Below are positions 26,026 through 53,788 of a DNA stretch of 64,000 nucleotides, one piece after another. The notes under the pieces were generated by a model. The model made no database searches. It was not told the DNA's origin and worked only from the letters and a program-made list of their open reading frames with translations. The stretch lies in contig JALCSB010000011.1 of NCBI GenBank assembly GCA_022653075.1, positions 1-64,000 of the forward strand, read 5' to 3'. The DNA is from Intestinimonas sp. GTDB lineage: Bacteria > Bacillota > Clostridia > Oscillospirales > Oscillospiraceae. Position 1 is the first letter of the stretch. Each line of letters opens with the position of its first letter. A program made the position numbers and the translations under genes.

Positions 26026-26103
26026 CGGCCGGTCTGCCTGGAAGAAAATCTTTCGGTCCGCCGGAAGTCTTCCACGTTTTCCTTTGCCTGCGGGAGGGTC
26101 ACG

Positions 26104-27144
26104 ATGCCGGACACATCTGCAAATCGAATATCTGCCCCGTTGTCCGCAGAAGAACTGGCCTCCCTATGCTGGGAGCTGGCCCTTTTGTACCGCGCAGGCT
26201 TGTCCGGTATGGACAGCGCCGCATTGCTGGCCGAAGAGTCCCAGCCGCCGCGGGTAGCAGAGGCACTGCGGGACCTGAGCGGGCGGCTGGCGGGCGGTGG
26301 AACGCTGTCGGCCGCTCTGCGCGAAAGCGGCAGGTTCCCGGCCTATCTGTCCGGTGTGGTGGAATTGGGCGAGGCCACCGGCCGAATGGACCAGGTCCTT
26401 TCGGCACTGTCCGACTACTATAAGCGCGAGGCCTCTGTAACCGCCGCGGTCCGACGGGCGGTTACGTATCCCGCGGGCATGTCCGCGCTTATTGCCCTCG
26501 TCTTTCTGGTTATGGTGGTACGGGTACTGCCTGTCTTTTCTCAGGTTTTATCTCAATTGGGGGCCAGTCTGCCCCCGCTGTCGCTCGCACTGCTGGGCGC
26601 CGGCTCCGCCGGACGGACCGCAGCCCTTGTTCTGGCCGGCATATTGCTGGCCGGTGCGCTCCTGCTGCTGCTCCTGTTCCGTGGGGACCGGGGCATGATT
26701 CTCTTTTCTCGAGGTGCCGTAGCGTGGGCAGTAGCCAGAGGCCGGTTCGCCGCCTCCATGGCTCTGATGCTGGAGAGCGGACTGCCTCTGGATGAGGCTG
26801 TGGAGCGCACCTCCTCACTGCTGGAGGACTCGCCTCTGGCCAGCCCTCTGGCGAACTGCCGGGTCCGGATGGCCAAGGGTACGTCCTTTCCCCAGGCTGT
26901 AGAGGAAAGCGGCGTGCTGACCGGTCTGCCGGCCGGCCTGCTGGCCGCTGGGTTCCGGGCGGGTGCACCGGACCAGGCCATGGCCGAGGCGGCCCAGCGC
27001 TGCCAGGAAACTGCGCAGGACCGGCTGGACCGGGTTTTAAGTCATTTTGAATATGCACTGGTCCTTGTTCTCTGCACCGCCGTGGGGCTGATGTTGCTGT
27101 CCGTGATGCTGCCGCTGGCGGGTGTGCTAACTGCCATTGGCTAA
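26104..27144 (+). CDS. Type II secretion/type IV pilus inner-membrane platform protein (GspF/PilC family)
   Basis: 346 residues. Two T2SSF repeats are present: the first (about 18-125) contains LALLYRAGLSGMDSAALLAE and YLSGVVELGEATGRM, the second (about 215-320) contains FAASMALMLESGLPLDEAVE and LPAGLLAAGFRAG. Three membrane segments follow the PilC topology: about 130-150, 175-200 and 315-345. In pili and type II systems this protein anchors the assembly or retraction ATPase. GGGAGGG five bases before the ATG supports the start. The four pilin-like genes and the ATPase follow with spacings of 14, 29, -4, -4 and 15 bp, so the group forms one operon. Confidence 0.9.
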   Translation: MPDTSANRISAPLSAEELASLCWELALLYRAGLSGMDSAALLAEESQPPRVAEALRDLSGRLAGGGTLSAALRESGRFPAYLSGVVELGEATGRMDQVLSALSDYYKREASVTAAVRRAVTYPAGMSALIALVFLVMVVRVLPVFSQVLSQLGASLPPLSLALLGAGSAGRTAALVLAGILLAGALLLLLLFRGDRGMILFSRGAVAWAVARGRFAASMALMLESGLPLDEAVERTSSLLEDSPLASPLANCRVRMAKGTSFPQAVEESGVLTGLPAGLLAAGFRAGAPDQAMAEAAQRCQETAQDRLDRVLSHFEYALVLVLCTAVGLMLLSVMLPLAGVLTAIG

Positions 27145-27158
27145 CGGGAGAGGATGTT

Positions 27159-27473
27159 ATGCGGTTGTCCTATCAAAACCGGGTTTGGCGGCTTCTGCGG
27201 CTGCTCTTCCTGCTGGTCGGCCTGCCGGCGGTCCTTTACACGGCCTCCGGCGTCCTGAGCAGCCGGGTCCATACTCAAGCGCTGGTCCTGACCGAACAGT
27301 CGGTCCGCCGGGCTGCGGTCCAGTGCTACGCGCTGGAGGGAGCCTACCCCATTACACTGGACGTACTCACGAAACACTATGGGGTCTCCATTGACGAGAC
27401 TCGTTATTTTGTGGATTACCGCTATGTGGCGTCCAATCTCATGCCGGAGATCACCGTGCTGCCCCGGTCCTGA
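27159..27473 (+). CDS. Small pilus-cluster membrane protein (pilin-like)
   Basis: 104 residues. One N-terminal hydrophobic segment (about 14-32) is followed by a short soluble domain with TEQSVRRAAVQCYALEGAYP, which resembles the alpha-helix and ALEGxYP turn of pseudopilins. The usual prepilin peptidase motif (G followed by FTLxE) is absent, so processing by a PilD enzyme is doubtful. GAGAGG precedes the ATG. Placed directly after the GspF-like gene and before three other one-pass proteins, it is probably a minor component of the same apparatus. Confidence 0.7.
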   Translation: MRLSYQNRVWRLLRLLFLLVGLPAVLYTASGVLSSRVHTQALVLTEQSVRRAAVQCYALEGAYPITLDVLTKHYGVSIDETRYFVDYRYVASNLMPEITVLPRS

Positions 27474-27502
27474 GTCCGGCACTGTCAGGAAGGAGGTTCT
27501 CC

Positions 27503-27988
27503 ATGTCCGGCAAGCTGTATTCCGCACTGGCCATTTTTTTGTGTGCCATGTTTTTTTTGCTGGCCATGGGGCTTACTCTGCTCTCGGCCGAAGCCTATCG
27601 AAACACCGCCGCCGCCGCGTCGGAAAATGACACCCGCCGCACCGCGCTTTCCTTTCTGGTAAACCAAGTCCGGAGGAACGATGCGCAAAACAGCGTCTCC
27701 CTTGCTTCGTTTGGGGACGGGGACGCGCTGATTCTGTCCGAAACAGTAGACGGTTCTCTCTACAAAACCGTGTTGTACTGCTTTGACGGCCAGTTGCGGG
27801 AGCTGTATGCCGCGGCTGACTCCGGCCTCGGTCCGGCGGACGGGCTGGCCATTCTGCCTCTCAAAACCCTGACCATTTCCGTATCGGACGGTTTGCTTAT
27901 CACCTTTACCGTTACCGACGAGAACGGCACCGCGTCCTCCGCCTCCGTATCCCCCCACTGTTGGTCCGAGGGGGTGGCGGCCTCGTGA
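27503..27988 (+). CDS. Pilin-like protein (DUF4860-type)
   Basis: 161 residues. A hydrophobic N-terminal segment (about 6-28, SALAIFLCAMFFLLAMGL) is followed by RRTALSFLVNQVRRNDAQNS and LILSETVDGSLYKTVLYCF. This pattern is found in the DUF4860 pseudopilin-like proteins of Clostridia pilus clusters. The globular part is mainly beta. No classical prepilin cleavage site is seen. GGAGG lies six bases before the ATG, and the stop overlaps the start of the next gene by four bases. Confidence 0.68.
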   Translation: MSGKLYSALAIFLCAMFFLLAMGLTLLSAEAYRNTAAAASENDTRRTALSFLVNQVRRNDAQNSVSLASFGDGDALILSETVDGSLYKTVLYCFDGQLRELYAAADSGLGPADGLAILPLKTLTISVSDGLLITFTVTDENGTASSASVSPHCWSEGVAAS

Positions 27989-28308
27989 AAGACCACTCTG
28001 TTTCCACCTCCCGTCTGCTCCTGCTGGAACTGGTATGCAATCTGTTTCTCTTTGCCCTGTGCGCCGCAGTATGCATCCTGTTTCTGGTCCGCGCACGGGC
28101 ACTTTCCCGGGAGAGCACCGATCTAACGCATGCGGTATATCTGGCGCAGAGTGCCGCCGAGGTCTGGCGGGCGGGGGATATCCCCGTCCACACACAGGAA
28201 AACGGATATACCGTCATCACGGAGTCAACTGGTGCGGATACCTGTGTTATCACGGTCTCCCGGAACGGCACGGTCCTGTACACGTTGGAGGGGGTGGCGC
28301 GCTCATGA
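27985..28308 (+). CDS. Pilin-like protein
   Basis: 107 residues, starting at a GTG that overlaps the preceding stop (GTGA). The N-terminus contains SRLLLLELVCNLFLFALC, which looks like a prepilin helix with a glutamate at the fifth position after a possible cleavage site, but the residue before the site is Arg rather than the usual Gly. THAVYLAQSAAEVWRAGD is typical of the pseudopilin spine. The remaining 45 residues form a small beta domain. It is co-translated with its neighbours. Confidence 0.68.
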   Translation: MKDHSVSTSRLLLLELVCNLFLFALCAAVCILFLVRARALSRESTDLTHAVYLAQSAAEVWRAGDIPVHTQENGYTVITESTGADTCVITVSRNGTVLYTLEGVARS

Positions 28309-28703
28309 AACACGGAACGAGTAGATTCTCTCCCCTAGGCACAGGCGTTCTTACGGTGTTTAACGTCTTAGTCATCCTGCTTATGGCTGTATTGGCAGTT
28401 CTCGCGCTCTCCTCCGCCCGGGCGGATCTGGTCCTCTCCCGCATTAACGCCGATACCGTTTCCGCCTACTACCGCGCGGATGCGCAAGCCGCCGCACTGA
28501 AAAAGCAGTTTTTGGCCGGCAGTACCCCTGAGCTGGAGGTCACGCTGCCCATGACCCAGGCACAGAACCTGTATATCCATTTGGTGCGCACGGAAAATGG
28601 CGGCTGCCGGGTGCTGGCCTGGCAGACAGTTCCCACGCAGGCCAGTCTGACCGGGGAAGAGGATACTCTCCCGGTATGGGATGGTACGCCGCCCGGCACA
28701 TAA
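28305..28703 (+). CDS. Pilin-like protein
   Basis: 132 residues, ATG overlapping the previous stop (ATGA). A hydrophobic helix lies at about 12-36 (LTVFNVLVILLMAVLAVLAL). It is followed by a helix with ADTVSAYYRADAQAAALKKQ and a beta-rich end with LEVTLPMTQAQNLYIHLV. No prepilin peptidase motif is visible. Overlap and order indicate that it belongs to the same apparatus as the three preceding small proteins. Its individual role is unknown. Confidence 0.66.
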   Translation: MKHGTSRFSPLGTGVLTVFNVLVILLMAVLAVLALSSARADLVLSRINADTVSAYYRADAQAAALKKQFLAGSTPELEVTLPMTQAQNLYIHLVRTENGGCRVLAWQTVPTQASLTGEEDTLPVWDGTPPGT

Positions 28704-28718
28704 ACTGGAGGTATTTTT

Positions 28719-29774
28719 TTGTCTCTTCTGGAAATTCTTCATGAGGCGGTGCGCCGCGCCGCCTCTGACATCCTGATTATCGCGGGCCTGCCGGTGGCCT
28801 ATAAGGTAAATGGCAGGATCAGCCGGGATGGGGAAACCCTGTATCCCGGCCAGACGCTGAATCTGGTCCAGGACATGTACCGGCTGGCTGGCCGGGGCAT
28901 GGATACCCTGCTGGACACGGGTGACGACGATTTTTCTTTCGGGATGCCCGGGCTGTCCCGTTTTCGGGTCAACGCCCTCCGGCAGCGCGGCTCTCTGGGC
29001 CTGGTCATCCGGGTGGTGTCCTTCACGCTGCCCGATCGGAATACCCTGGGTATCCCGGTCCGGGTCATGGACTTTTCCCAGTGTGATCATGGTATGGTCC
29101 TCTTTACCGGCCCAGCCGGCAGCGGCAAAACCACCACGCTGGCCTGTCTGGTGGATGCCGTGAACAATACCCGCGCCCTGCATGTTATCACCATCGAGGA
29201 CCCCATTGAATACCTCCATCAGCATAAAAAGAGCGTGGTTACCCAGAGGGAACTGTTCACCGATACCGCGTCCTATGATTCCGCCCTGCGGGCAGCCTTA
29301 CGGGAGGCCCCGGATATTATTCTGCTGGGCGAGATGCGGGATGCCGAGACGATTCGCGCCGCCGTCACCGCCGCAGAGACCGGACATCTGGTCATCTCAA
29401 CCCTCCATACCATCAGCGCAGCCAGCACCGTGGACCGGGTGGTGGACACCTTTCCGCCCTCCCAGCAACAGCAAATCCGCACCCAGTTGGCGCAAGTTCT
29501 GGAGGGCGTGGTATCCCAGCAGCTTCTGCCCGCTGTGGACGGCACGCTGCGCCCCGCCTTTGAGATTATGATCGTCAATCCCGCTATACGGAACATGATC
29601 CGGGAGTCCAAAATGTTTCAGCTTGACACCATTATCTCTTCGTCCGCTGACCAGGGCATGATTACCATGGATCAGAGCATCCTTTCCCTGGCCCGGTCCG
29701 GGCTTATTACTTCCACCACCGCCCTGCGCTACGCCATTAATCCGGACTGGATGCAGCGGCGTCTGACTCAATAA
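28719..29774 (+). CDS. PilT-like secretion/twitching ATPase
   Basis: 351-residue hexameric ATPase of the PilT branch of the secretion ATPases. The N-terminal PAS-like domain carries DILIIAGLPVAYKVNGRI. Walker A is GPAGSGKTTT (131-140), the Asp box ITIEDPIEYLH, Walker B DIILLGEMRDAETI (199-212) and the His box STLHTISAASTVDRVVDTFP. PilT powers retraction; no PilB-type assembly ATPase is in the window, so either PilB is elsewhere or this ATPase drives both directions. The start is TTG at 28719, 8 bases after GGAGG. Confidence 0.9.
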   Translation: MSLLEILHEAVRRAASDILIIAGLPVAYKVNGRISRDGETLYPGQTLNLVQDMYRLAGRGMDTLLDTGDDDFSFGMPGLSRFRVNALRQRGSLGLVIRVVSFTLPDRNTLGIPVRVMDFSQCDHGMVLFTGPAGSGKTTTLACLVDAVNNTRALHVITIEDPIEYLHQHKKSVVTQRELFTDTASYDSALRAALREAPDIILLGEMRDAETIRAAVTAAETGHLVISTLHTISAASTVDRVVDTFPPSQQQQIRTQLAQVLEGVVSQQLLPAVDGTLRPAFEIMIVNPAIRNMIRESKMFQLDTIISSSADQGMITMDQSILSLARSGLITSTTALRYAINPDWMQRRLTQ

Positions 29775-36532: not shown

Positions 36533-36571
36533 GTCCCGGAAACGCGGATCCGCGTTTCCGGGACCTTTTTC
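36533..36571 (+). terminator. Terminator of lepA
   Basis: 36533-36564 is a perfect 32-base palindrome (16-bp arms, arm GTCCCGGAAACGCGGA), followed by CTTTTTCTT. Confidence 0.88.
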
Positions 36572-37843
36572 TTATTCCGAAGCCGCCGCATCCAGCAGGG
36601 CACGGTACGACTCTCCGCTCTCTACCCGGCCCACAGCGGACAGGGAAGCCCGACTGAAATCGAACAGCCGGCGGGCCAGTTCCCGCACACCGTCGGCGGT
36701 GACGGCGTCATAGGCGGCGATAACCTGATCCGTTTTGAGCACCCGGCCGGTGAGCAGCAGCCCGCGGCCCAAGCTGCTCATGCGGGCCTGGGTGGATTCC
36801 AGTCCCATAAGGACGTTGGCCTTGGACAGTTCCCTGGCCCGTTCTAGTTCCGCGGCAGTGGGGCCGTCCGCGGCAAAGCGCTTTACCTCGCGGAAAATGG
36901 TCTCCAGCGCCTTACGCTCCGTTCCCTGATTGACCGCGGTGTAGATAGCAAACACGCCGGTCTCCGCGTGGCCGGCTCCATAGGTGTAGATAGAATAGCA
37001 CAGACCACTTTTGTCCCGCACCTCCTGGAACAGGCGGGAGGACATACCGCTGCCCAGGATGGTGGAGAGAACCTGCAGCGTAAAGCGGTCTGGATGCCCA
37101 TAGGGAAGACCGGGAAATGCCACCGTGAGGTGGTTCTGTTCAATGGCCTTTTTCTTCACCGTAACGGCCGGCGTATAGGTTACCGGCCTGGGTGGTTTTC
37201 CCTTTCCGCCGTCAAGGCCGCCCAGCCGTTTTTCCAGCTCACCCACCACCTCATCGGAGAAGCTGCCCGCCAGGGAGACCACCATATCCCCCGGCAGGTA
37301 GTGGGTCTTCTGATATTCCCGGAGCCATGCGCCCGTCATCCGATCCAGCGTGGCTTTCTTGCCCAGAATGGGGCGTCCCAGCGGCGTGCCCTTGTAGATG
37401 GCGGCCATAAGCCGCTCGGAGGTCAGGTCGTCGGGCGTATCTTCATACATTCCAATTTCCTCCAGAATGACCCCGCGCTCAGTCTGCACGTCGCTCTCAT
37501 CGAACCTGGAACAAAACACCATGTCACACAGCATATCCAGCGTGCGGTCCAGATGGGTGTCCAGGCTGCGTCCGTAAAAGCAGGTACACTCCTTGGTGGT
37601 ATAGGCGTTAACCTGACCGCCGATGGCGTCCATCTCCTGCGCCAGCTGTTCAGCCGTGCGCCGCTTGGTGCCCTTAAAGACCATGTGCTCAATAAAGTGG
37701 GCCGCACCACTCTCCGAATTTTTCTCATGCCGGGAGCCGGTACCCACCCAGATACCCAGAGAAGCGGAGCGTACCGCAGGCACATGTTCCGTGGCAATGC
37801 GCAGACCATTTTTCAAGGTGATGATGTCATAACTCTCTACCAT
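36572..37843 (-). CDS. M16 family zinc peptidase (processing-peptidase type)
   Basis: 423 residues. The inverted zinc motif HFIEH is at 49-53, and ERGVILEEIGMYEDTPDD near 122-139 supplies the third ligand Glu. The family sequence ITLKNGLRIATEHVP opens the protein, and LPGDMVVSLAGSF and SGMSSRLFQEVRDKSGLCYS are further M16 hallmarks. It is cytoplasmic, with no signal peptide; B. subtilis MlpA/YmxG is a comparable enzyme. It is the last gene of the run from recJ, 22 bp after the Mur-kinase fusion. The start at 37843 has AAGAGG upstream; the long frame to 37954 overlaps the preceding gene. Confidence 0.9.
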   Translation of the reverse strand: MVESYDIITLKNGLRIATEHVPAVRSASLGIWVGTGSRHEKNSESGAAHFIEHMVFKGTKRRTAEQLAQEMDAIGGQVNAYTTKECTCFYGRSLDTHLDRTLDMLCDMVFCSRFDESDVQTERGVILEEIGMYEDTPDDLTSERLMAAIYKGTPLGRPILGKKATLDRMTGAWLREYQKTHYLPGDMVVSLAGSFSDEVVGELEKRLGGLDGGKGKPPRPVTYTPAVTVKKKAIEQNHLTVAFPGLPYGHPDRFTLQVLSTILGSGMSSRLFQEVRDKSGLCYSIYTYGAGHAETGVFAIYTAVNQGTERKALETIFREVKRFAADGPTAAELERARELSKANVLMGLESTQARMSSLGRGLLLTGRVLKTDQVIAAYDAVTADGVRELARRLFDFSRASLSAVGRVESGESYRALLDAAASE

Positions 37844-37865: not shown

Positions 37866-40271
37866 TTAGGACGAAAAAGCGTCCCGCTCCGGCTCGTCCG
37901 GCGTAATGGCGGTACCCATGGTCTGTCCGGACACGGTGTCCAGCAGCAGCACATGGCCGATGCGCCCGTCCAGAATCACCACCTGCCGCACGCCCTGGTC
38001 CAGCGCCCGGATGCAGCTGGTGAGCTTGGGCACCATACCGCCCTGAATGAGGCCGGCATCCATCAATTCCCGGGCGCGGGAGACCGTCATGTTGGGAATG
38101 GCGGTCTTCTCGTTACGGCTGTCCATCAGAATGCCGTCCACATCGGTAAGGAACACCAGCTTGTCCGCCCGCAGGGCCTGTGCCACGGCGCAGGCCGCGT
38201 CGTCGGCGTTGCAGTTATAGCTTACCCCATTTTCTCCCTCCGCAACCGGAGAAATAACGGGAATATATCCACCTGAGAGCAGCAGGCGGATCAGCGTGTC
38301 GTCAACCCGGTCCACCTCGCCCACCCGGCCCAGCGCCGGGTCTTTTTGCCGGGCGGAAAGAATGCCGCCATCCCGGCCGGAAACACCTGCGGCGGGCACC
38401 TGAAGCCGTCGCAGGGCGGAGACAACCTGCTTGTTCACAAGGCCGGAGAGAGCCATTTCTGCCACGTCCATGGCGGTTTCGTCCGTGACTCGATAGCCGT
38501 TCTGGAATCGGGTGGGGACCTTCATGCGGGTCAGCCACCGGGTGATGTCCTTCCCGCCGCCATGGACCAGCACGACATGGACCCCCGCCATCTGCAGGGC
38601 AGCCACATCCCGCAGAATGGAGTCCACCGCGCCGCCCTCACCCAGCGCGGAGCCACCGTACTTGAGCACGATGGTCTTTCCTGCGCTGGCTTTCAGCCGG
38701 GGCAGGGTATCCAAAAGGCCCAGCACCTTTTCCATACCGTCCAGATGATGCTGCACGTCGTACTCATGCAGAAAACGCTTGGTATACTCCACATCCGAGG
38801 GGCATTCGATATACGCGGTGCCTCGTTTCTGCCTGGTCTCCGCTCCCTTGCCAGTGATGAGAATAACGGTGGGATCTTCGCATCCCATGACAGCCTGCCG
38901 GATGGCCTCGCCGCGATCAGGCTGAATGGAATAGTCACAGCCCATGGCCTCCACATGGACGGCCACCTCCCGGCAGATGTCCTCTACGTTCTCCTCGCCG
39001 GGGTCCTCCTCGGTGAGGATGACGAAATCGGAATACTTCCCGGCAATTTCACCCAGGTCTTTCCGGCGGTCCAGCGCCTTTTTGCCCGGGCAGCCGAATA
39101 CAATGCCGATATGGCGGCCGGGGTATTCCTGTCTTACCGACTCGAACAGCTTCTGAAAGGACAGGCGGTTGTGGGCGTAGTCCACAATTGCGGTAACCCG
39201 GCTGTCCGCGTTGGTGTAGACCTCCATTCGCCCGGGTACCCGGGCCTTCATGAGGCCCACATAAATGCAGCGCTCCGGAATACCCAGTCCTTCGCATACG
39301 GCGATGGCGGCCAGGGCGTTCTGGACGTTAAACAGGCCAGGCATAGTCAGGCGGAACTCCCGGCTCATACGCGGCGTTCTCACCCGGAACAGGATATCGC
39401 GGCCCGCTTTGCGCACTTTTGTGGCGTATACCGTGGCGGCGGGGTCCTTTTCGGAGAAAGTAATCAGCCGGGGACACTCGGCGGCCGCATTCAGCACGCG
39501 GGGTACCTCGTCAGAATCCAAATTCACCACCGCCAGATGGGAATGGCTGAAAATTTTTAATTTGGACGCAAAATAGTCCTCAAAGTCCGGGTGTTCAATA
39601 GGGGAGATGTGGTCATAGCCGATGTTCAGAAACACGGCAGCGGCTAAGTCCACACCGAGCATGCGGTCATACTTAAGCGCCTGACTGGATACCTCCATGG
39701 TCAGGTATTCGATGCCGCTGGCGGCGGCGTGGGCGAAATGGCGCTCCAAATCCAACGGCTCGGGCGTGGTCAGGTGAGATTCAAACCGTTCCACACCGTC
39801 ATAGGTGTCGATGGAGGAGACCACGCCGCTCTCCGGCGCATTCCGAGAGGCCAGGTACTCGTCAAAAATATACTTCAGGTAATAAGTGGTCGAACTTTTC
39901 CCTTTTGTGCCGGTAATACCCACCACATTCAGCTTGCCGCTGGGGTGATCATAATAAAAGTCGGCCAGCAGAGCCATCGCCCTGCGGATATCGGTGACAG
40001 TCAGGCAGGGGACCGCGCCGCCCTCGGAGAAGGGTTTCTCGGCCAAATAGGCGAACGCACCGCCGGCAATGGCCTCCTTCAGGTAGTCGCCCTTGAAATG
40101 GACGCCCTTGCAGAGAAACAGGGTGTTGGGTTCCACCGCTTTGGAGTCGCAGGACACCAGCGCCACGGGATGGGCCAGCAGAGCGGCGGGCAGCGGCTCC
40201 TGGGAAGCCAAAAGATCGTTTTTTTGCAGCAACTGCCAGTAGTCGCCCAGCGTATGCGTGGAATGCTCCAT
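37866..40271 (-). CDS. Fusion of a MurE-like Mur ligase with an N-acetylglutamate-kinase-type domain
   Basis: 801 residues in one uninterrupted frame. Residues about 1-510 are a Mur ligase: P-loop VVGITGTKGKSSTTY (117-131), TTPEPLDLE, MEVSSQALKYDR (normally SSHAL), NIGYDHISPIEHPDFEDYFA, DYAHNRLSF, and GKGAETRQK near the end. The MurE substrate motif (DNPR in DAP-adding enzymes) is replaced by EEDPGEEN (about 421-428). Residues about 530-795 match ArgB: VLKYGGSALGEGG, VLVHGGGKDITRWL, RFQNGYRVTDETAM, VSGRDGGILSA, YNCNADDAACAVA, FLTDVDGI and GGMVPKLTSC. Mur ligases add an amino acid to a carboxylate; ArgB phosphorylates N-acetylglutamate. It starts 21 bp after a racemase gene. ATG 40271 has GGAGG 8 bases upstream. 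The substrate of either half is unknown. Confidence 0.85.
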   Translation of the reverse strand: MEHSTHTLGDYWQLLQKNDLLASQEPLPAALLAHPVALVSCDSKAVEPNTLFLCKGVHFKGDYLKEAIAGGAFAYLAEKPFSEGGAVPCLTVTDIRRAMALLADFYYDHPSGKLNVVGITGTKGKSSTTYYLKYIFDEYLASRNAPESGVVSSIDTYDGVERFESHLTTPEPLDLERHFAHAAASGIEYLTMEVSSQALKYDRMLGVDLAAAVFLNIGYDHISPIEHPDFEDYFASKLKIFSHSHLAVVNLDSDEVPRVLNAAAECPRLITFSEKDPAATVYATKVRKAGRDILFRVRTPRMSREFRLTMPGLFNVQNALAAIAVCEGLGIPERCIYVGLMKARVPGRMEVYTNADSRVTAIVDYAHNRLSFQKLFESVRQEYPGRHIGIVFGCPGKKALDRRKDLGEIAGKYSDFVILTEEDPGEENVEDICREVAVHVEAMGCDYSIQPDRGEAIRQAVMGCEDPTVILITGKGAETRQKRGTAYIECPSDVEYTKRFLHEYDVQHHLDGMEKVLGLLDTLPRLKASAGKTIVLKYGGSALGEGGAVDSILRDVAALQMAGVHVVLVHGGGKDITRWLTRMKVPTRFQNGYRVTDETAMDVAEMALSGLVNKQVVSALRRLQVPAAGVSGRDGGILSARQKDPALGRVGEVDRVDDTLIRLLLSGGYIPVISPVAEGENGVSYNCNADDAACAVAQALRADKLVFLTDVDGILMDSRNEKTAIPNMTVSRARELMDAGLIQGGMVPKLTSCIRALDQGVRQVVILDGRIGHVLLLDTVSGQTMGTAITPDEPERDAFSS

Positions 40272-40292: not shown

Positions 40293-40997
40293 TCAGACGT
40301 TACGCAGGGGATAGCCACAGGCGGTGATGGCCGCCTCGGCCAGGACCTCCATGGCATCGAGATAAAATCCAGGCAGGCCGTGATAGATCCGGTAGACGGA
40401 CAGTTCCGTGCAAGCCAGCACGGCCCCGTCGCAGTTCCGGGCACGGAGCTCCCGGTCAGCCAGGGCAAATTTCTCCCGGCTGCCTGTCTCGCCCCGCTTA
40501 ATCTCATCGTAAATGATGCTCATAATCGCCTTCTGGGTGTTGGTTCCCGGGGCTATGCCCTCCATGCCCAAGGCAGCGCATTCCGTCTGGTACAGGCCGG
40601 TCCGAATCGTACCGTCGGTGGCCAAAATGCCCACCCGGCGGCAGCCCCGCCGGGACAGCACGCGGACGGTTTCCCGAATCATATGCAGTACGGGAATGCC
40701 CACCTCACTCTGGAGCCGATCCACAAAATAGTGAGATGTGTTGCAGGGGATGGCAATAACCGTGCAGCCGCTGTGCTCCAGCAGTCTGGCGTCGGCCAGC
40801 AGGCGCTGATAGACCGGCTCGGTCCCGCCGGAGAGAATGGCGGCCGTACGGTCAGGCATCTGGGTATCGCTGAGGATGATGGTGGGTACATGGTCCTGGT
40901 CACAGTCGGCCTCAGTGCGGTCCAGCACACGCTGATAGAACATCTGCGTAGCCTGCGGACCCATGCCGCCCAGGACTCCTAAACGAGCATTGCTCAT
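40293..40997 (-). CDS. Aspartate/glutamate racemase family protein
   Basis: 234 residues of the Asp/Glu racemase superfamily (RacX/RacD/YgeA group). The two catalytic cysteines are visible: AIPCNTSHYF (Cys85) and LACTELS (Cys196). LGVLGGMGPQATQMFYQRV at the N-terminus is the typical opening. These PLP-independent enzymes interconvert L- and D-aspartate, glutamate or other amino acids by a two-base mechanism. GGGAGG precedes ATG 40997. It lies between the ATP-grasp ligase (158 bp upstream) and the Mur-kinase fusion (21 bp downstream), an arrangement that suggests it supplies a D-amino acid to one or both. Confidence 0.9.
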   Translation of the reverse strand: MSNARLGVLGGMGPQATQMFYQRVLDRTEADCDQDHVPTIILSDTQMPDRTAAILSGGTEPVYQRLLADARLLEHSGCTVIAIPCNTSHYFVDRLQSEVGIPVLHMIRETVRVLSRRGCRRVGILATDGTIRTGLYQTECAALGMEGIAPGTNTQKAIMSIIYDEIKRGETGSREKFALADRELRARNCDGAVLACTELSVYRIYHGLPGFYLDAMEVLAEAAITACGYPLRNV

Positions 40998-41154
40998 TGA
41001 AAATCCTCCCATCAGAGCTTTGCCGCGTTTGCGGCGTTCCAAAAGGTTTGGACCTCTGATCCAACCCCTTTGCTGCCGGGCGGAATCGTTCCGCCCATGC
41101 AGATTCGATTACTTGGGGCCCCGCACGGTCGAGGCGGGGTGAGGGCATCCCCCT
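40998..41154 (-). other. Intercistronic region with hairpins
   Basis: The gap between the ATP-grasp gene and the racemase gene holds GGGCGGAA-TCG-TTCCGCCC and CCCCGC/GCGGGG hairpins without a T-run. They may stabilise or partially attenuate the transcript; no promoter was convincing. Confidence 0.4.
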
Positions 41155-42363
41155 TCAGTTCGGTCTGTCATAATATTTTTTGAACTTGATAAAATGGCCC
41201 AGCTGGTTCTTTGCCACCTGCAGGCGGCGCCGAAGCCCGCGGTCCGCCTCATAGCGCAGGGGATTCGTCACCTTACCCGCACTGATGAGCTCCCGCATTT
41301 CGGCGTGGTACTGACGGGGCGTATAATCATACGCCACCTTAAAAGGAACCACTGTCCACAGGGAATGCTCCCGCGCGATGGTAAAGTCCATAGGTTTGTG
41401 TTCCAGTCGGTCCTCCACCAAAAGTCTGGCAATGTTGTGGCCTGCGCCAGTCACATAGAAATTGCTGCGGCCCTGCCGGCAGTTGATCTCAAACACCTTG
41501 TATTTTCTGTCCCGCTGGTCAAATTTAATGTCGAAGTTGGAAAATCCGGTAAAATGTAAGGCCTCAAGAAATCCCTGCAGCGTCCGGCACAGCTCTTCGT
41601 TGGGTTCGGTTAGGATAACGGCATGGTTGCCGATACCGTGGGGCGTATGTTCCTCCAGCAGAACATGACCCAGACACATAAGCTTCACTCCGCCCTCCGC
41701 ATCGGAGTAGTTGGTGAGCACCCGCATATAGCTGTCATCCCCGGGGATAAACTCCTGGATAATCATGCTGTCGGGATAGCCAGCGGCGTAAACCTTGTCC
41801 AGCGTGGCCTCCAGGACACGGCGGTCGCTCAGCTTAAAGACTTTCTTGTTGCCCTCAAAGGGGTGCTCCCAATAGGCCACGCCATTTGCCGGCTTGCAAA
41901 TGTACGGTGCCTCGAAGGGAAGCTTGAAGTGATGCCCCATCTCCGGACGGTAGACAAAAGTGGCGGGGTAGTCGATGCCATATTCGTCGCACAGAGTATA
42001 GAAGTGCTCTTTGTTGATGAGCTGGTCCATCTGCTCCCCGCTGATATAAGGGGCCACCACGTTGCCTGGATACTGTCCCAGGTACTCGGCGGCCAGACGC
42101 ACATAGCTGTCTCCGCAGCCCAGAAGGAGAACCGGACTTTCGCTGTGTTCGGCGGCAAAGTCACAGACATTTTTGAAAAACGTGGGCCCGTCCTCATTTT
42201 TGGCACAGACCCGATAGTCAAGGATGGCGCTTCCATAGCAGGGGCCTGTGGCAAACTTGCCATAGGCCGTGCTTTTGATGCCGTAGGCCTCGTGAAACGC
42301 ACGTGCTACGCTGTATACATTGATATCCCCGCCAAACAGCAGGGGAAAAATTTTCGTTTCCAT
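41155..42363 (-). CDS. ATP-grasp carboxylate-amine ligase, D-aspartate-ligase-like
   Basis: 402 residues. The N-terminal pre-ATP-grasp domain starts FPLLFGGDINVYSVARAFHE. The ATP-grasp core contains APYICKPANGVAYWEHPFEG, MIIQEFIPGDDSYMRVLTNY, the CLGHVLLEEHTPHGIGNHAV loop and the metal-binding end FSNFDIKFDQRDRKYKVFEI followed by NCRQGRSNFYVTGAG. This layout resembles the D-aspartate ligase (Asl) group, which in Enterococcus faecium adds D-Asp to the peptidoglycan stem lysine and is encoded beside an aspartate racemase. Here a racemase and a Mur ligase follow. It is a cytoplasmic enzyme joining a carboxylate and an amine with ATP; the exact pair is unknown. GGAGG lies 9 bases before ATG 42363. 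Confidence 0.82.
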   Translation of the reverse strand: METKIFPLLFGGDINVYSVARAFHEAYGIKSTAYGKFATGPCYGSAILDYRVCAKNEDGPTFFKNVCDFAAEHSESPVLLLGCGDSYVRLAAEYLGQYPGNVVAPYISGEQMDQLINKEHFYTLCDEYGIDYPATFVYRPEMGHHFKLPFEAPYICKPANGVAYWEHPFEGNKKVFKLSDRRVLEATLDKVYAAGYPDSMIIQEFIPGDDSYMRVLTNYSDAEGGVKLMCLGHVLLEEHTPHGIGNHAVILTEPNEELCRTLQGFLEALHFTGFSNFDIKFDQRDRKYKVFEINCRQGRSNFYVTGAGHNIARLLVEDRLEHKPMDFTIAREHSLWTVVPFKVAYDYTPRQYHAEMRELISAGKVTNPLRYEADRGLRRRLQVAKNQLGHFIKFKKYYDRPN

Positions 42364-42418
42364 AGATGCTCGCCTCCGCAGCAAATCTGTTTCTTTCGCC
42401 GATTTTCTCTTTCCTGAC

Positions 42419-44650
42419 TTATCTTCTGGCCCGTTTGACCTGATAAACACCCTGGATCTGGCCCAGTTTATTGATCACCGTGTTCAGTTCCTCCCGGTCC
42501 CCGACTTCTAGGACCAGGGAAATGATGGCATACCCGTCAGGCATGGACCGGGCGGAGAGGGAATTGACCTTCACCTTGGCCGAGGACAGGGCCATGGCCA
42601 CATCCAGCGTCAGGTTGTCCCGGTCTTTGGCGGAGATATCCAGCGAGGTCTGATAACCTTCCAAGTCGCCCTCTACCCAGGAGACGTTCACCCAGCGTCC
42701 GGCTTCCTCCGGCTTGCGTTTCTTCGGGTCGGCATTGGGGCAGTCGCACCGGTGAACCGATACGCCGAAGCCCCGGGTAATAAAGCCCACCACCGGGTCC
42801 CCGGGGACCGGCGCACAACACTTGGCGAACTTCACCAGACAGTTGCCCAGTCCTTCCACCACAATACCGGACTCCGTGTGCCGGGGCGCGGCGGGTTTTT
42901 GGGCCGTGGCCGTGTTCTGTGGTGCGGGAACAATAAGGCTGTTCTGGAGTGTCTTTTCCACATTGGCCCGCTCGTTCCGCTCCCGGCTCAAACGGACCAT
43001 CTCATCCCGCACCCGGCCCACCGCCTTCTGCGCGGTCATGCCGCCGTAGCCGATGGCGGCGTACAGCTCGTCCAGCGTGCCGAAGCGCACCTTTTTGAGA
43101 ATATGGGGTAATGTGTCCTCTGTGGTGATGGCGGCCAGAGAGTAGCCCACATGCTTCATCTCTGACTCAAACGCGGCGCGGCCGGTGGCGATGTTCTCCT
43201 CACGGCGTTCTTTTTTAAACCACTGGCGGATTTTATTCTTGGCCTCGTTACTTCTGGCAATCTTCAGCCAGTCCCGGCTGGGTCCGTGGGGGGCCTTCGT
43301 GGTGATTACCTCTACAATATCGCCGCTTTGAAGGGGATAGTCGAAGGTGACGATGCGTCCGTTCACCTTGGCCCCGGTCATGGCGTTGCCCACGGCGGAA
43401 TGGATGTTATAGGCGAAGTCGATGGGGGTAGCCCCGGCGGGCAGGTTCACCACGTCGCCCCGCGGGGTGAACACGAACACCTCGTCGGCAAACATGTCCA
43501 CCTTTAGGGTGCGGACGAACTCCTCCGCGTCGGTGTTCTGCTGGTTTTCCAGCAACTTCCGAATCCACTCAAAATTGGCCTCCGTACCCAGCTTGGTGTT
43601 GGCCAGACCCGTCTTGTATTTCCAGTGGGCCGCAATGCCGTACTCCGCCGTGTGGTGCATCTCCCAGGTGCGGATCTGGACCTCAAAGGGGATACCCTCC
43701 CGGCCGATGACCGTAGTGTGCAGAGACTGATACATATTGGGCTTGGGTGTACCGATATAGTCTTTAAACCTGCCCAGTACGGGTTTAAACAGGTCGTGGA
43801 TGCAGCCAAGCACATTATAGCAGCCCGGGATATCATCCACAATCACCCGGAAGGCGTAGAGATCAAATATTTCGTCCATGGTTTTGTTTTGGGTATACAT
43901 TTTGCGGTAAATGGAATAAATGTGCTTCACCCGACCATACACCGTGGCCTTGATGCCATCGGTGGCCAGCCGGTCCTGAATTCTTTTTTGGATGGCGGCC
44001 ATAAACTCTTCGTGGGCGGTGGAGCGGCGGTTCAGTTCCTCGGCAATCTCCCGGTAACCCACCGGGTCCAGGTACTTGAGGGACAAGTCCTCCAGTTCCC
44101 ACTTCACCCGCTGCATGCCCAGCCGGTGGGCGATGGGCGCATAAATCTCCATGGTCTCCAGCGCCTTCTCCCGCTGCTTGCGGGCGGACTGGTAATTCAT
44201 GGTGCGCATATTGTGCAGGCGGTCGCAGATCTTGATGAGAATAACCCGGATGTCCCGTGCCATGGCCATGAGCATTTTCCGCAGGTTCTCCATCTGCTCT
44301 TCTTCCTTGGAGGTATAGGTGACCCGGGTCAGCTTGGTGACACCTTCCACCATGTCGGCCACCGATGGGCCAAACAGCCTGGCGATCTCCTCATGGGTGG
44401 CGGAGGTATCCTCGATGCAGTCGTGCAGCAGGGCGGCAATGATCGAATCGGTGTCTAGTTCCAGATCGGCCACAATGTCCGCCACCGCCAGCGGGTGGGT
44501 GATGAACGGGGACCCGTCCTTCCGGCGCTGCCCGCTGTGGGCGCTGTCCGCATACTGGAAAGCGGAATAAAGCCGCTTCGTATCCAGATGCGGGTTGTAT
44601 TTCTCTATTTTCCCTTCGAGCGCCTGGTAACTTTCCAGAACAGGGTCCAA
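42419..44650 (-). CDS. relA: Bifunctional (p)ppGpp synthetase/hydrolase (RelA/SpoT family)
   Basis: 743-residue long RSH enzyme. The hydrolase HD domain has SGQRRKDGSPFITHPLAVA, ALLHDCIEDTSATHEEIARLF and CDRLHNMRTM. The synthetase domain has GRVKHIYSIYRKMYTQN, YAFRVIVDD, MYQSLHTTVIGREG and EVQIRTWEMHHTAEYGIAAH. TGS (DMFADEVFVFTPRGDVVNLP), a helical/zinc-finger region with CLVKFAKCCAPVPGDPV, and a C-terminal ACT domain follow. All hydrolase and synthetase residues I can check are present, so it should be bifunctional. The start is TTG at 44650, 7 bases after GAGAGGTG. It sits between recJ (28 bp) and the ATP-grasp gene (55 bp). recJ-relA adjacency occurs in other Firmicutes. Confidence 0.96.
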   Translation of the reverse strand: MDPVLESYQALEGKIEKYNPHLDTKRLYSAFQYADSAHSGQRRKDGSPFITHPLAVADIVADLELDTDSIIAALLHDCIEDTSATHEEIARLFGPSVADMVEGVTKLTRVTYTSKEEEQMENLRKMLMAMARDIRVILIKICDRLHNMRTMNYQSARKQREKALETMEIYAPIAHRLGMQRVKWELEDLSLKYLDPVGYREIAEELNRRSTAHEEFMAAIQKRIQDRLATDGIKATVYGRVKHIYSIYRKMYTQNKTMDEIFDLYAFRVIVDDIPGCYNVLGCIHDLFKPVLGRFKDYIGTPKPNMYQSLHTTVIGREGIPFEVQIRTWEMHHTAEYGIAAHWKYKTGLANTKLGTEANFEWIRKLLENQQNTDAEEFVRTLKVDMFADEVFVFTPRGDVVNLPAGATPIDFAYNIHSAVGNAMTGAKVNGRIVTFDYPLQSGDIVEVITTKAPHGPSRDWLKIARSNEAKNKIRQWFKKERREENIATGRAAFESEMKHVGYSLAAITTEDTLPHILKKVRFGTLDELYAAIGYGGMTAQKAVGRVRDEMVRLSRERNERANVEKTLQNSLIVPAPQNTATAQKPAAPRHTESGIVVEGLGNCLVKFAKCCAPVPGDPVVGFITRGFGVSVHRCDCPNADPKKRKPEEAGRWVNVSWVEGDLEGYQTSLDISAKDRDNLTLDVAMALSSAKVKVNSLSARSMPDGYAIISLVLEVGDREELNTVINKLGQIQGVYQVKRARR

Positions 44651-48225: not shown

Positions 48226-50322
48226 TCAGGACTCAGAGGAGGGTTCCTCGCCACTCGAGGTCTCCTCGCCACTCTTTGAAGTTTCCGGCGCGGGCGCGTC
48301 GCCCCCGGAAAGAGGAATAGGAGCTGAAGGGTCCTCTATCTTCGGCGCGGCCGGCGGTTCGGACGCGGGGCCCGCTCCGAATTGATCCTCGGCCTGCTCC
48401 GGATCCTTGCCAGCCAAAATGGCCATCATCTCGGCACCTGTGATGGTCTCCTTCTTCAGCAGGTACAACGCAATGGCATTCAGCATGTCCCGGTTCTCCT
48501 CCAACAGTTTTACCGAATCGGCATGGCACTTCTGGAGAAGGTCCTGGACTTCCCGGTCAATCACCGCGGCGGTCTCCTGGGCGCAGTTGAGGCCATAATT
48601 ACCCTCCAAATACTGACTTTTTACCGTGGCCAAGCCCATCATGCCAAACTTGTCGCTCATGCCGTACATAGTGACCATCTTCCGGGCCAGATCGGTGGCG
48701 CGCTCAATGTCGTTGGAAGCACCGGAGGTCATGGTGCCGAACACCACTTCCTCGGCGGAGCGACCGGCCAACAGCGTGCGGATTTCGGTAAGCAGATCAT
48801 CTTTGGTCATGAGGAACTTCTCCTCCTCGGGCAGCTGCATGGTATAGCCCAGTGCGCCCTGGGTGTGGGGCACAATTGTAATCTTGGAAACCGGCTGGGC
48901 GTTCTTCTGCCGGGCCGCCACCAGGGCGTGGCCCACCTCGTGATACGCAATCAGTTTCTTCTCCTTCTCGGTAATGACGGTACCCTTCTTCTCACTGCCG
49001 GCAATCACCAGCTCGAAGGAGGCCAGCAGATCCCGCTGGTTGACCGCCCGGCGGCCCAGACGCACGGCCCGAAGAGCGGCCTCGTTGACCAGATTGGCAA
49101 GGTCTGCACCCACACAGCCTGCGGTAGCCTGCGCAATTTTATTGAGGTCCACGTCCTCCGCCAGCCGGATATTACGGGTGTGAACCTGAAGCGTGGCCAG
49201 ACGGCCCGCCAGATTGGGCCGGTCCACAATGATGCGCCGGTCAAACCGGCCGGGCCGCAGCAGAGCCTTGTCCAGCACCTCCGGCCGGTTGGTAGCCGCC
49301 AGGACGATTACACCCTTGGTGGGATCGAAGCCATCCAATTCCGCCAGCAGCTGGTTTAGGGTCTGCTCCCGCTCGTCGTTGCCGCCCATACGGTTGTCCC
49401 GGCTTTTGCCAATGGTATCGATCTCATCGATGAAGATAATGCAGGGGGCCATTTTGGCGGCCTCCTTGAACAGGTCCCGGACCCGGCTGGCGCCCACGCC
49501 CACAAACATCTCCACGAAATCGGAGCCGGAAATGGAGAAGAAGGGTACGTTGGCCTCGCCGGCCACGGCCTTGGCCAGCAGCGTTTTGCCGGTACCGGGG
49601 GAGCCCACCAGCAGCGCGCCCTTGGGCAGCTTGGCCCCAATCTCGGTATATTTTTGTGGATTATGGAGAAAGTCGATGATCTCCTCCAGACTCTCCTTGG
49701 CCTCGTCCTGACCGGCCACATCCCGGAAGGTGACTCCGGTCTTTTTCTCCACATAGACCTTGGCGTTGGCTTTACCCACGCCGCCCAGGCCGCCGCCCAT
49801 CCGGGTGGACATGCCGCGGAACAGCAGGGACATAAGGACCATCATAACGGCCATGGGCAGCACCCAGGATACCAAGAAAGAAATAATGGGGGACAGCTCC
49901 TCCACGTAGGGGGCACTGTAGGTCACGTCATGCTCATCCAGAAGGGAGATCAAACGCTCCCTGTCCTCGTTGATGGGGGCGCAGTAATAGGTTGCGGCGG
50001 CGCCATCGGACAGATCTCCCAAGCTTTCCAGGCCAGGGACAACCGTCGTATCCTGCTGGTCGTCGTCTGCGGACGCGTCCTCTTTAGGGGTAATGGTAAT
50101 TTTGTTGTTGCCGCTTTCAAAAACCACCTCTTTTACCTTATCGTCCTTCACCATCTGGATCAGGTCGCTGTATTTAATCTCAGTGGTATGGGAGTTGGAT
50201 AGGGAGGAGGTAAAGTAATTGACGGCAAGGGTAATAATAAGGGCCCAGAGAATGATAGAAATGATGCCCATCATGTTGCGGTTTGAGTTGTTGCCGGACC
50301 CGGTTCCCTTTTGGGGTTTCAA
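48226..50322 (-). CDS. ftsH: ATP-dependent zinc metalloprotease FtsH (second copy)
   Basis: 698 residues. Transmembrane segments lie near 18-38 and 145-168 with an extracytoplasmic domain between. Walker A is VGSPGTGKT (239-247, with Ser where Pro is usual), Walker [21 protein letters not shown], and the zinc site HEVGH (461-465). The C-terminal 50 residues form an acidic, serine/glutamate/proline-rich tail ([15 protein letters not shown]), which the first FtsH lacks. It starts at TTG 50322, eight bases after GGAGG, and is monocistronic. The standard FtsH-type N-terminus suggests this copy may be the general housekeeping enzyme, but that cannot be decided from sequence. Confidence 0.95.
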
Positions 50323-51360: not shown

Positions 51361-51418
51361 CGGTTTTCAGCCCGTTGGCACGGCCCACTTTATCTTTATT
51401 AATCAGGTGATCTTTCGT

Positions 51419-53788
51419 ATGGCAAAGGACCGTGAACAAAAAGATCAAATTAAGACCGACGCCACCACCGCCGTGGACAAGCCGTCGGAATTTTCGCTGG
51501 AGGATATTCTGGCGGAATTCGGCAGCGGGCACGCGGAGACCGGGCGCTCCGGAGAACAGGGGGACAGCGGCAGGCCCGACCTCCCCTTGCCGGAGGCTGA
51601 ACATCATCCGGTACCGGGAAATATTGTGCCGTTTCCACGCAGCGAAACGGACGAATTAAACGGTGCCGAGCCCTTGCCCAACAGCGATGAGCCGGACGAT
51701 GACGGGCCTCCGCCGGACGGCGATGAGCCGGACGATGACGGGCCTCCGCCGGACGGCGATGAGCCGGACGACGACGGGCCTCCGCCGGACGGCGATGAGC
51801 CGGACGACGACGGGCCCCCGTCTGACGGCGATGAGCCGGACGACGACGGGCCCCCGTCTGATGGCAATGAGCCGGGCGATGACGGGCCCCCGCCTGACGG
51901 CGATGAGCCGGACAGCGGCGACAAGATATTGCCCTTCTCCGAATATACCCCGGAGCAGAGCCCGCTGCAGGACGCCCTGGACCGGCTTCGGAAAAAGGCG
52001 GATGATTACGCCGAACAGATGTTTACAGAGGAGGGCAAAGAGCACAAACCCAGGACCATGAGACTGGAGCGCCTGATCCCCGGCGTGGATGAGGAGGAAA
52101 AAGCACCGCCCAAGCCTAAAAAGGTCCGGCGAAAAACGTCACCCCCGCCCGATCTGTCCCCATCGGAGCTGACGGCACGTTATGCCAAAGGATTAGGGCT
52201 TCTGCGTCTTCGCTCGGTTCTGGTGCTGTTGCTGGCCCTGCCGCTTTTATATCTAGCGGTGGCGGAGCTGTCCCCGCTGTTTTTGCCCGGCATTCTGGCA
52301 AATTCCTTTTCCACACAGGTTTTGTGTTCGGCGGTGCTGCTGGGCGCCGCCATGCTGCTGGGCGTGGACGTGCTGCTGCGGGGCGTGTGGGATTTGTTTC
52401 TGCTTCGTCCCGGTGTCCACACCCTGTGTTCATTTGCCTGTGCAGCCACGCTGGCCGACGCACTGACTCAGTTCCGGCTGACTCCGGAACGTCACGTATT
52501 GCCGCTCTGTTGTGTCTGCGTGCTGTCCATCTTCTTCGCCCTGCGGGGCGAGTACATCGGTCGCCAGGGCCTGCGTCTGTCCTGCCGGACGGCGGCGTCC
52601 GCGGCGGAGCCGTACCTGGTTACCCTGGATGAAAATTGTTGGAATGGAAGGGATACCTACGCAAAGTGGTCCGGTCTCATCCACGGCTTCGGCAGCCAGA
52701 TTCAGGAGGATGATCTGTCCCGCAAAGTCTGGAAACGGGCGGCACCTCTGCTGTTGCTGGCATGTTTCCTGCTTTCTCTGGTGGCCTCGGTGGGCCACCG
52801 TACGCCGGAGCATATGTTGTGGTGCCTGTCCGCCATGCTGACCGCCTGCACCTCGTTTTCCGGATTTTTGACTTTCGCACTGCCTTTCCGTACGCTGACC
52901 CGGAGGCTGGCCGCCTCCGGTGCGTCCCTTCCCGGCTGGTCCGCCGCAGAAAAGGCGGGCGGGGCGCTGCTGGTCAACGACACCGATCTGTTTCCCCCCG
53001 GCTCCGTCTCTATGAACGGTATTAAAGTATTCGGCGACTTTCCCGTGGAAAAAGTCGTCGGCGTTACCGCCACTCTGATTCGGGACTCCGGCAGCGGCCT
53101 CGATCAGCTATTCCACGACCTGCTGCGGACGCAGGGGGCCGTTTACCGTCGGGCCGCCGATGTAACACGGCACGAAGGCGGCGGTCTGTCCGGCGTCATC
53201 CGCGGAGAACAGATTCTGGTCGGCTCGGCCGCTTTTCTCTCTCTAATGGCAGTTCCGCTGCCTCCGGGGCTTAAGGTACATAATGCGGTGTTCTGCGCAA
53301 TTGACAACCAACTGGCCGGGGTGTTCGCCCTCAACTACACCATGAATCTCCCCATACCGCCGGCCCTCTCCGCCCTGATCTCCGCTTCGGTGTCACCGGT
53401 GCTGGCCACCCGGGACTTTAATCTTATTCCCGCTATGCTGCGGCAGAAGTTCAAACTACCTGTGGATAAAATGGCCTTTCCCGCCACCGACCGAAGGGCG
53501 GAGCTGTCCGACCCCAACCGGCCCCATAGCGGGCGTATCGTCGCCGTGCTCTGCCGGGAAGGCTTAGTCCCCTTCGCCGAGGCCATCATCGGCGCCCGGC
53601 GGTTACGCGGGGCGGTCCGGCTGTCCACCGGCCTGTCCGTACTGGGCGCGCTGGTGGGGCTGCTGCTGTCCTTCTATCTCAGCTTTATCTCTGCCTGGAT
53701 CTCCCTTGCGGCCATTCATCTGGCCTTCTTTCAGCTGGCCTGGCTGGTACCGGTCTGGCTCATCAGTGGTTGGGTAAACCGATACTAA
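51419..53788 (+). CDS. Membrane protein resembling a catalytically dead P-type ATPase, with an acidic tandem repeat
   Basis: 789 residues. Residues about 90-161 are six copies of a 12-residue acidic/proline repeat (DEPDDDGPPPDG). Hydrophobic segments lie near 262-285, 300-320, 335-350, 362-377, 442-460 and 470-492, and two more near the C-terminus. After MLTACTSFSGFLTFALPF (where P1B ATPases have CPC) comes EKAGGALLVNDTDLFPPGSV, aligned with the DKTGTLTxG phosphorylation loop. N-domain-like HEGGGLSGVIRGEQILVGSAAF follows. The region that should hold GDGxNDxP contains VAVLCREGLVPFAEAIIGAR instead. The phosphorylatable Asp motif and the hinge motif are both lost, so transport is unlikely and a scaffold or regulatory role is more plausible. 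Start 51419 has AGGTGAT 7 bases upstream. Confidence 0.7.
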   Translation: MAKDREQKDQIKTDATTAVDKPSEFSLEDILAEFGSGHAETGRSGEQGDSGRPDLPLPEAEHHPVPGNIVPFPRSETDELNGAEPLPNSDEPDDDGPPPDGDEPDDDGPPPDGDEPDDDGPPPDGDEPDDDGPPSDGDEPDDDGPPSDGNEPGDDGPPPDGDEPDSGDKILPFSEYTPEQSPLQDALDRLRKKADDYAEQMFTEEGKEHKPRTMRLERLIPGVDEEEKAPPKPKKVRRKTSPPPDLSPSELTARYAKGLGLLRLRSVLVLLLALPLLYLAVAELSPLFLPGILANSFSTQVLCSAVLLGAAMLLGVDVLLRGVWDLFLLRPGVHTLCSFACAATLADALTQFRLTPERHVLPLCCVCVLSIFFALRGEYIGRQGLRLSCRTAASAAEPYLVTLDENCWNGRDTYAKWSGLIHGFGSQIQEDDLSRKVWKRAAPLLLLACFLLSLVASVGHRTPEHMLWCLSAMLTACTSFSGFLTFALPFRTLTRRLAASGASLPGWSAAEKAGGALLVNDTDLFPPGSVSMNGIKVFGDFPVEKVVGVTATLIRDSGSGLDQLFHDLLRTQGAVYRRAADVTRHEGGGLSGVIRGEQILVGSAAFLSLMAVPLPPGLKVHNAVFCAIDNQLAGVFALNYTMNLPIPPALSALISASVSPVLATRDFNLIPAMLRQKFKLPVDKMAFPATDRRAELSDPNRPHSGRIVAVLCREGLVPFAEAIIGARRLRGAVRLSTGLSVLGALVGLLLSFYLSFISAWISLAAIHLAFFQLAWLVPVWLISGWVNRY
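51686..51919 (+). repeat. 36-bp in-frame tandem repeat (about 6.5 copies)
   Basis: Units begin at 51686, 51722, 51758, 51794, 51830 and 51866, with a partial seventh at 51902. Each encodes a variant of DEPDDDGPPPDG. Copies differ by a few substitutions (ccg/tct, gat/gac), so they are not very recent. Confidence 0.9.

Follow-up and report, generated by a model that had tools for sequence, protein, structure and literature searches.

Why would a kinase of arginine synthesis be carried on the same polypeptide as a cell-wall ligase? The question is raised by a gene of Intestinimonas sp. (Oscillospiraceae), located in a contiguous stretch of 64,000 nucleotides that was analysed as a whole (contig JALCSB010000011.1, positions 1 to 64,000; referred to as the window). 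The original prediction, made from this stretch without database searches, described a fusion of a MurE-like ligase and an N-acetylglutamate kinase (NAGK, ArgB), knew of no pathway uniting both activities and considered either an arginine-related kinase joined by chance or a kinase acting on the substrate or product of the ligase.

The fusion and the ordinary murE and argB of the genome

The predicted coordinates of the gene are correct, and its strand, absent from that prediction, is minus (Table 1). The 801-codon frame runs uninterrupted from an ATG at 40271 to the stop codon at 37868..37866, and all motifs quoted for it are found (GTKGKSS, SSQAL, EDPGEEN, GKGAETRQ, VHGGGKD, RVTDETAM and YNCNADDA). 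Pfam assigns Mur_ligase_M (132 bits), Mur_ligase_C (94 bits) and AA_kinase (171 bits), and the NCBIfam models for murE and argB are both passed; the protein is a second MurE-type ligase and an ArgB-type kinase, both complete, in one chain. Since the same three Pfam domains are present in the best 120 of 4875 database matches and the full-length fusion occurs in 33 of 400 genomes of the family, it is neither a chance product nor an assembly error. No homologue covering 80% of the fusion was found in plasmid records, and a literature search on MurE, acetylglutamate kinase and fusion gave no title dealing with such a protein. As predicted, a Pfam scan of 27 proteins of the window revealed no other arginine gene. 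Elsewhere in the window, two complete FtsH-type proteases are encoded (11453-13354 and 48226-50322), as are a 793-codon frame on the plus strand (51407-53788) with no Pfam match and, in a row at 23804-29774, a BTAD regulator, a transglutaminase-like protein and type II/IV secretion F and E proteins.

Table 1. Features of the fusion locus; positions refer to the window unless another locus is named.
Feature	Position	Strand	Basis or remark
Fusion gene, MurE-type ligase and ArgB-type kinase	37866..40271	minus	801 aa
Mur ligase half, residues 1-505	38757..40271	minus	TIGR01085, 304 bits (NCBIfam cut-off 257); tree clade
Residues 195-197, SSQ	39681..39689	minus	shared with the MurEs of E. faecalis, L. 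curvatus and Collinsella
Residues 420-428, TEEDPGEEN, amino-acid specificity loop	38988..39014	minus	counterpart of E. coli DNPR and S. aureus DNPA
ArgB-type kinase half, residues 514-790	37902..38732	minus	TIGR00761, 239 bits (NCBIfam cut-off 151); N-helix first (about 514-529)
Asp/Glu-type amino acid racemase	40293..41042	minus	ORF from TTG; likely ATG start at 40997 or 41012
ATP-grasp carboxylate-amine ligase, D-aspartate-ligase-like	41155..42450	minus	likely ATG start at 42363
RelA/SpoT, upstream neighbour	42419..44650	minus	same direction as operon
M16 peptidase, downstream neighbour	36572..37843	minus	Pfam; 22 bp gap to fusion
Terminator-like inverted repeat after M16 gene	36533..36564	.	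sequence repeat
XRE-like regulators in relatives	L033 8070-8735; L056 4456-4686; L058 12154-12736; L043 8615-8851		read by eye

The fusion is not the only murE and argB of its genome (2.05 Mb in 28 contigs, 97.7% complete). A separate murE (488 bits) with the SSHAL and DNPR motifs lies within a dcw cluster, and a separate argB (266 bits) is located between argJ (453 bits) and argD of an argG-H-C-J-B-D-F operon, the neighbours in both cases being named by eye from protein starts. Exactly two murE-type genes (E up to 1e-40) were found in all 26 genomes with the operon that were tested, one scoring 373-519 bits and one of the fusion-ligase group; the loop motif of the higher-scoring gene was read in the genome of the window and in five named loci. 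In the genus g67, the other murE lies directly downstream of the operon ligase gene in six of eight genomes (G145, G247, G285, G319, G351 and G377), where it is the only other murE-type gene found, and on another contig in the remaining two.

Class of the ligase and its operon

The original prediction took two positions of the ligase half for non-standard specificity positions, namely SSQAL instead of SSHAL and EDPGEEN instead of the DNPRxED of MurE adding diaminopimelate (DAP). The first did not hold, since relatives carry, downstream of the operon, MurEs that combine SSQ with DNPR (loci L085, L092, L115, L117 and L118), so that SSQ alone is no mark of specificity. A further murE directly downstream of the operon is also found in L106. 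For the second, the DAP-recognising arginine is indeed missing, but the loop is not odd; according to the alignments it is the non-DAP form. In an alignment with seven other MurE-type sequences, D406, N407, A409 and E460 of S. aureus MurE correspond to E422, D423, G425 and E478 of the window protein, and the DAP-binding arginine of E. coli DNPR corresponds to G425. E422, D423, G425 and E427 are kept in all 121 full-length fused sequences (window included), none of which thus has the arginine of DAP-adding MurE. In S. aureus MurE, D406 and E460 hold the side-chain amine of lysine and the missing arginine disfavours DAP (PMC3829189).

In a MurE class tree of 26 rows, in which the Collinsella row is long, the operon ligases form one clade (100/100 support) with the L-Lys MurE of E. 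faecalis and the MurEs of L. curvatus and Collinsella, apart from DNPR-type MurEs including those with SSQ. The operon ligases alone group at just 59/24, so that the exclusion of Collinsella is unsure. Database records name the L. curvatus and Collinsella enzymes as DAP ligases; we take both to be non-DAP enzymes. The L-lysine ligase equivalog PRK14022 is matched at 339 bits, below its cut-off of 536. Deinococcus MurE was dropped as an ornithine yardstick because its loop is unlike all others, and no L. fermentum murE was present among 60 of 62 records listed. From its clade and loop, the fusion ligase is predicted to be of the lysine/ornithine, non-DAP kind. With the L-Lys-type MurEs of S. 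aureus (4c12) and E. faecalis it shares the three Mur domains and the lack of the DAP-binding arginine, and the lysine that is carbamylated in the S. aureus enzyme is also present. It differs from S. aureus MurE by a Glu in place of D406, and from this type in general by the fused kinase and by being a second MurE in a genome with a DAP-type one. Another natural fusion of MurE with a further enzyme is the MurE-MurF protein (8f5d), in which the partner is the next Mur ligase and not a kinase of arginine/ornithine synthesis.

A context for the fusion, for which no pathway had been proposed, is provided by the two genes upstream of it, an aspartate-type racemase and an ATP-grasp enzyme resembling D-aspartate ligases, which are conserved with the ligase. 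The racemase (searched part 40293-41006) passes the amino acid (aspartate) racemase model TIGR00035 (203 bits, cut-off 93) and is 37% identical to the racemase adjoining a ligase gene in L. curvatus. The ATP-grasp enzyme (searched part 41155-42360) gave no Pfam match above cut-off and no credible relative in a PDB sequence search, while a fold search showed an ATP-grasp fold, with L-amino acid ligase (3vot) and PylC (4ffl) within the top three rows. Across its entire length it shares 36% identity with the racemase-adjoining ligase of L. curvatus, and on this basis it is predicted to be a D-aspartate ligase of the AslA type; two sources name its orthologues D-aspartate ligase (P0227, P0233). 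A relative in L. crispatus adjoins asnB. D-Asp bridges of lactic acid bacteria are made by AslA and RacD (PMC4155827). As in the AslA/Aslfm and RacD systems of Lactococcus, Enterococcus and lactobacilli, in which racD may share the aslA operon, the two genes are neighbours and homologous over their full length, although this likeness rests on the L. curvatus pair (36-37%) and not on AslA or Aslfm themselves. Unlike those systems, the window pair adjoins a matching MurE gene in an organism which also has a DAP-type MurE. Relatives of the ATP-grasp ligase with 32-44% identity, two of them covering 98-99% of it, also occur in phage-labelled records (LT985590.1, MT835538.1 and three contigs labelled as Listeria phage), which may be bacterial DNA or wall-modifying phage genes.

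In the window, about 150 bp separate the ATP-grasp gene from that of the racemase; the fusion follows the racemase gene after 21 bp and is itself followed by the M16 gene after 22 bp. Among 20 loci of the family fetched by the Mur gene, the ATP-grasp gene adjoins it in 17 and the racemase in 16; L044 begins at a contig edge, L046 and L047 are without both and L038 is without the racemase. A second set of 80 named loci was found via the ATP-grasp enzyme, whose presence is therefore a given; in the 59 of them with at least 4 kb downstream of its gene (21 with under 4 kb being left out), the Mur gene is present in 53 and both racemase and Mur gene in 48. In four Intestinimonas loci (L052, L053, L054 and L055), the ATP-grasp gene is followed over 5.6-10 kb by neither a racemase nor a Mur gene. 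Of the 69 loci that extend more than 3 kb beyond the ATP-grasp gene on its upstream side, 29 encode RelA/SpoT there, within 2.5 kb of the gene. An extra conserved gene between racemase and Mur gene was rejected, as the intervening genes vary across 15 loci; four of these have small regulators of the helix-turn-helix type (XRE-like by eye), in some cases in tandem, and a similar protein of about 430-500 aa is encoded in L081, L094, L101 and L108.

Because the ligase falls into the non-DAP clade and the upstream genes match the lactobacillar racemase/ligase pair end to end, what the operon encodes is most likely a peptidoglycan set of the lysine/ornithine-plus-D-Asp type, in addition to the DAP set; a second, non-DAP MurE accompanied by D-Asp genes is a reading in which our confidence is high. 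It is very improbable that ligase, racemase and ATP-grasp enzyme instead make a non-wall peptide, for example with D-cysteate, on a UDP-MurNAc-like or other carrier. The racemase does pass the cysteate racemase model NF052483 (CuyB; 209 bits, cut-off 190), of which the L. curvatus racemase falls slightly short at 185 bits, yet all three genes are homologous to lactobacillar genes of D-Asp-bridged walls, and in six of eight g67 genomes the sole other murE-type gene is located directly downstream of the operon ligase gene. Two peptidoglycan types occur in Lysinibacillus sphaericus, with Lys-D-Asp and DAP precursors in one organism. For the window operon, a sporulation link (a second wall, vegetative cell versus cortex) was rejected, as no association beyond the family background was seen: spoIVA was found in 74 of the 80 genomes with the operon (56 of 57 among the good ones) compared to 55 of 60 good genomes without the operon.

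Residues and decay of the kinase

The kinase half retains the catalytic residues of NAGKs (the Lys, the Arg, NxNAD and GGMxPK): K537 and R594 are found in 121 of 121 fused sequences and N686, N688, D690 and K749 in 120. A helix predicted at 513-529 aligns with the N-helices of NAGKs, as in the arginine-inhibited enzymes. Two further residues of such enzymes, both present in the NAGKs of T. maritima and P. aeruginosa, are replaced: the N-helix Tyr (position 525) is present in all of 15 canonical ArgBs of the family and in one of the 121 fused sequences, and the first Gly of GxGT (position 784) in all 15 and in none. E778, a further likely arginine-site residue, is kept (Glu in 90 and Asp in 30 of 121). 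The arginine site of NAGKs lies between the N-helix, helix H and the following loop (PMC3329491). In Corynebacterium, mutations named H268N and G287D have a moderate effect on inhibition (PMC10464499); judged by spacing, G287 would be residue 784 here. We take argJ to be a marker of the acetyl-recycling route. In this route, NAGK is the arginine-inhibited step (PMC10464499). As the predicted arginine site has lost its Tyr and its Gly and argJ is present in the genome, an arginine-deaf enzyme of ornithine supply is the simplest reading of the kinase. It would thus differ from the arginine-sensitive hexameric NAGKs (T. maritima 2bty, P. aeruginosa 2buf, cyanobacteria) in its arginine site as well as in its location behind a Mur ligase.

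The 38 rows of fused kinases group in a single clade, separate from the 15 canonical ArgBs (SH-aLRT 100). Compared to these, the fused clade has P replaced by K/R at 574 (107 and 9 of 121), L by Y at 593 (119 of 121) and T by D at 691 (all 121), in or next to substrate motifs. Such fixed changes would suit a kinase phosphorylating a carboxylate on a wall precursor, e.g. D-Glu or D-Asp, as considered originally, and the D-Glu of the precursor is an N-acylated glutamate. Against this, position 593 also varies in arginine-pathway NAGKs (His in 2bty, Met in 2buf), the curated argB model accepts the domain, and the part of the window between the ATP-grasp and M16 genes showed neither a reductase nor an amidase as partner; moreover, Mur and ATP-grasp ligases generate acyl phosphates by themselves. 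Precursor phosphorylation is ranked below ornithine supply and regarded as improbable.

A separate argB was found in 29 of the 33 genomes with the full fusion, as would be expected if the fused kinase were a spare arginine isozyme joined by chance, with no functional coupling. The repeated loss described below would also fit. That the fused kinases form one clade across many genera and keep their catalytic residues makes joining by chance unlikely, and the loss of two arginine-site residues also speaks against a mere isozyme, to which we give only a small chance. G397 (97% complete) and G188 (83%) are fused genomes without separate argB, argC and argJ, which speaks against ornithine supply by the fused kinase, though in either case the gap could be due to a single operon absent from the assembly. 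G037, a candidate for the fused kinase as only ArgB, was rejected, as its contig ends inside argJ.

The Mur gene (E up to 1e-110) is present in 85 of the 400 family genomes, of which, classed by aligned length and open frame, 33 have the full fusion, three a shortened kinase and 49 no kinase. Named relatives include Intestinimonas, Evtepia, Lawsonibacter, Flavonifractor and Pseudoflavonifractor; kinase-less ones are Clostridium paraputrificum, Anaerovorax and Bacilliculturomica. The orthologue in Intestinimonas butyriciproducens shares 79% identity with the window protein. In a Mur tree without four short or truncated loci (L077, L088, L089 and L103) and with identical copies in four of its 88 rows, seven changes are needed among four labels, a number compatible with a single gain and repeated later loss and decay; the kinase was probably gained once. 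As it disappeared or degenerated on several occasions in loci that retained the ligase, it is dispensable. The arg genes also count against the supply of ornithine by the kinase: argB and argC are absent in seven of 44 kinase-less operon genomes tested, so that the core operon genes persist without ornithine synthesis by that route. The absence of argC is not clearly different between fused (2 of 33) and kinase-less genomes (7 of 44). Counts of arg genes and spoIVA omit five of the 85 operon genomes, all kinase-less (G154, G209, G290, G380 and G393).

Ten named loci (L070, L071, L081, L082, L083, L087, L094, L095, L127 and L129; open frames of 640-719 aa) keep the fusion, but up to about 130 residues of the kinase are gone, every catalytic motif among them; the N-helix and the C-terminal helix are retained. 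The genome G396 shows the same shortened length. The remnant state was read from the sequence for the ten loci and from length alone for G396, G128 and G189, as well as for locus L143. The retained helices are the parts lining the arginine site of NAGKs (PMC3329491). These eleven remnants would be in line with a lysine-adding MurE whose kinase part is an oligomerisation or sensing module and not a metabolic enzyme. We consider this unlikely, since the catalytic residues, needless for a scaffold, are present in 120 or 121 of the 121 full-length fusions. A second, divergent argB is found beside argC or other arg genes in G128 (C1:1116593-1118223), G133 (C12:736-2360) and G189 (C60); its location among other arg genes in G128 and G189 speaks against a relocated kinase.

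Predicted diamino acid and second wall precursor

Residue 422, aligned with the lysine-binding D406 of S. aureus MurE, is Glu in all 39 full-kinase rows (four of them identical copies), in nine of 11 remnants and in 18 of 32 kinase-less rows, the others having Asp. The 14 kinase-less rows with Asp make up the whole of a 14-row clade that is sister to all other rows (SH-aLRT 82). Outside the operon, Glu is found in Collinsella MurE and Asp in the E. faecalis and L. curvatus enzymes. Glu, one methylene longer than Asp, would suit a side chain one methylene shorter, i.e. ornithine. This is a hint of ornithine; against it, residue 422 changed on few branches, Glu is also found in rows without a kinase and support for the sister clade is limited. 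Collinsella walls contain ornithine. A Collinsella paper is among the references cited for a table row including type A4-beta in a gut-peptidoglycan review (PMC11382707).

The best explanation as a whole, an ornithine-fed second wall precursor made by the fusion and the D-Asp genes, is in our estimation as probable as its opposite. The racemase would make D-aspartate, which the ATP-grasp enzyme would attach to the side-chain amine of the residue added by the ligase, so that an Orn/Lys-D-Asp precursor would arise in addition to the usual DAP one, while the fused kinase would act as an arginine-deaf acetylglutamate kinase supplying ornithine to the ligase. This supply from kinase to ligase is the weakest step, with a chance that is even at best and perhaps slightly lower. 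That the organism has two peptidoglycans, one with DAP and one with ornithine-D-Asp, the latter fed by a bifunctional enzyme coupling a feedback-deaf committed step of ornithine synthesis to the consuming ligase, is a tentative proposal and rather unlikely in this complete form.

For the family, the second MurE in 85 of 400 genomes predicts a second wall precursor. Among Oscillospiraceae, the table of the 2024 gut-peptidoglycan review gives mesoDAP for Faecalibacterium and has no entry for Oscillibacter (PMC11382707). Peptidoglycan chemistry bears on the host receptors and wall-cleaving enzymes that act on a bacterium. If the explanation is true, arginine-pathway metabolism and wall synthesis would be directly and physically linked, and the fusion would exemplify an enzyme of metabolic supply that is covalently joined to a ligase of the cell wall.
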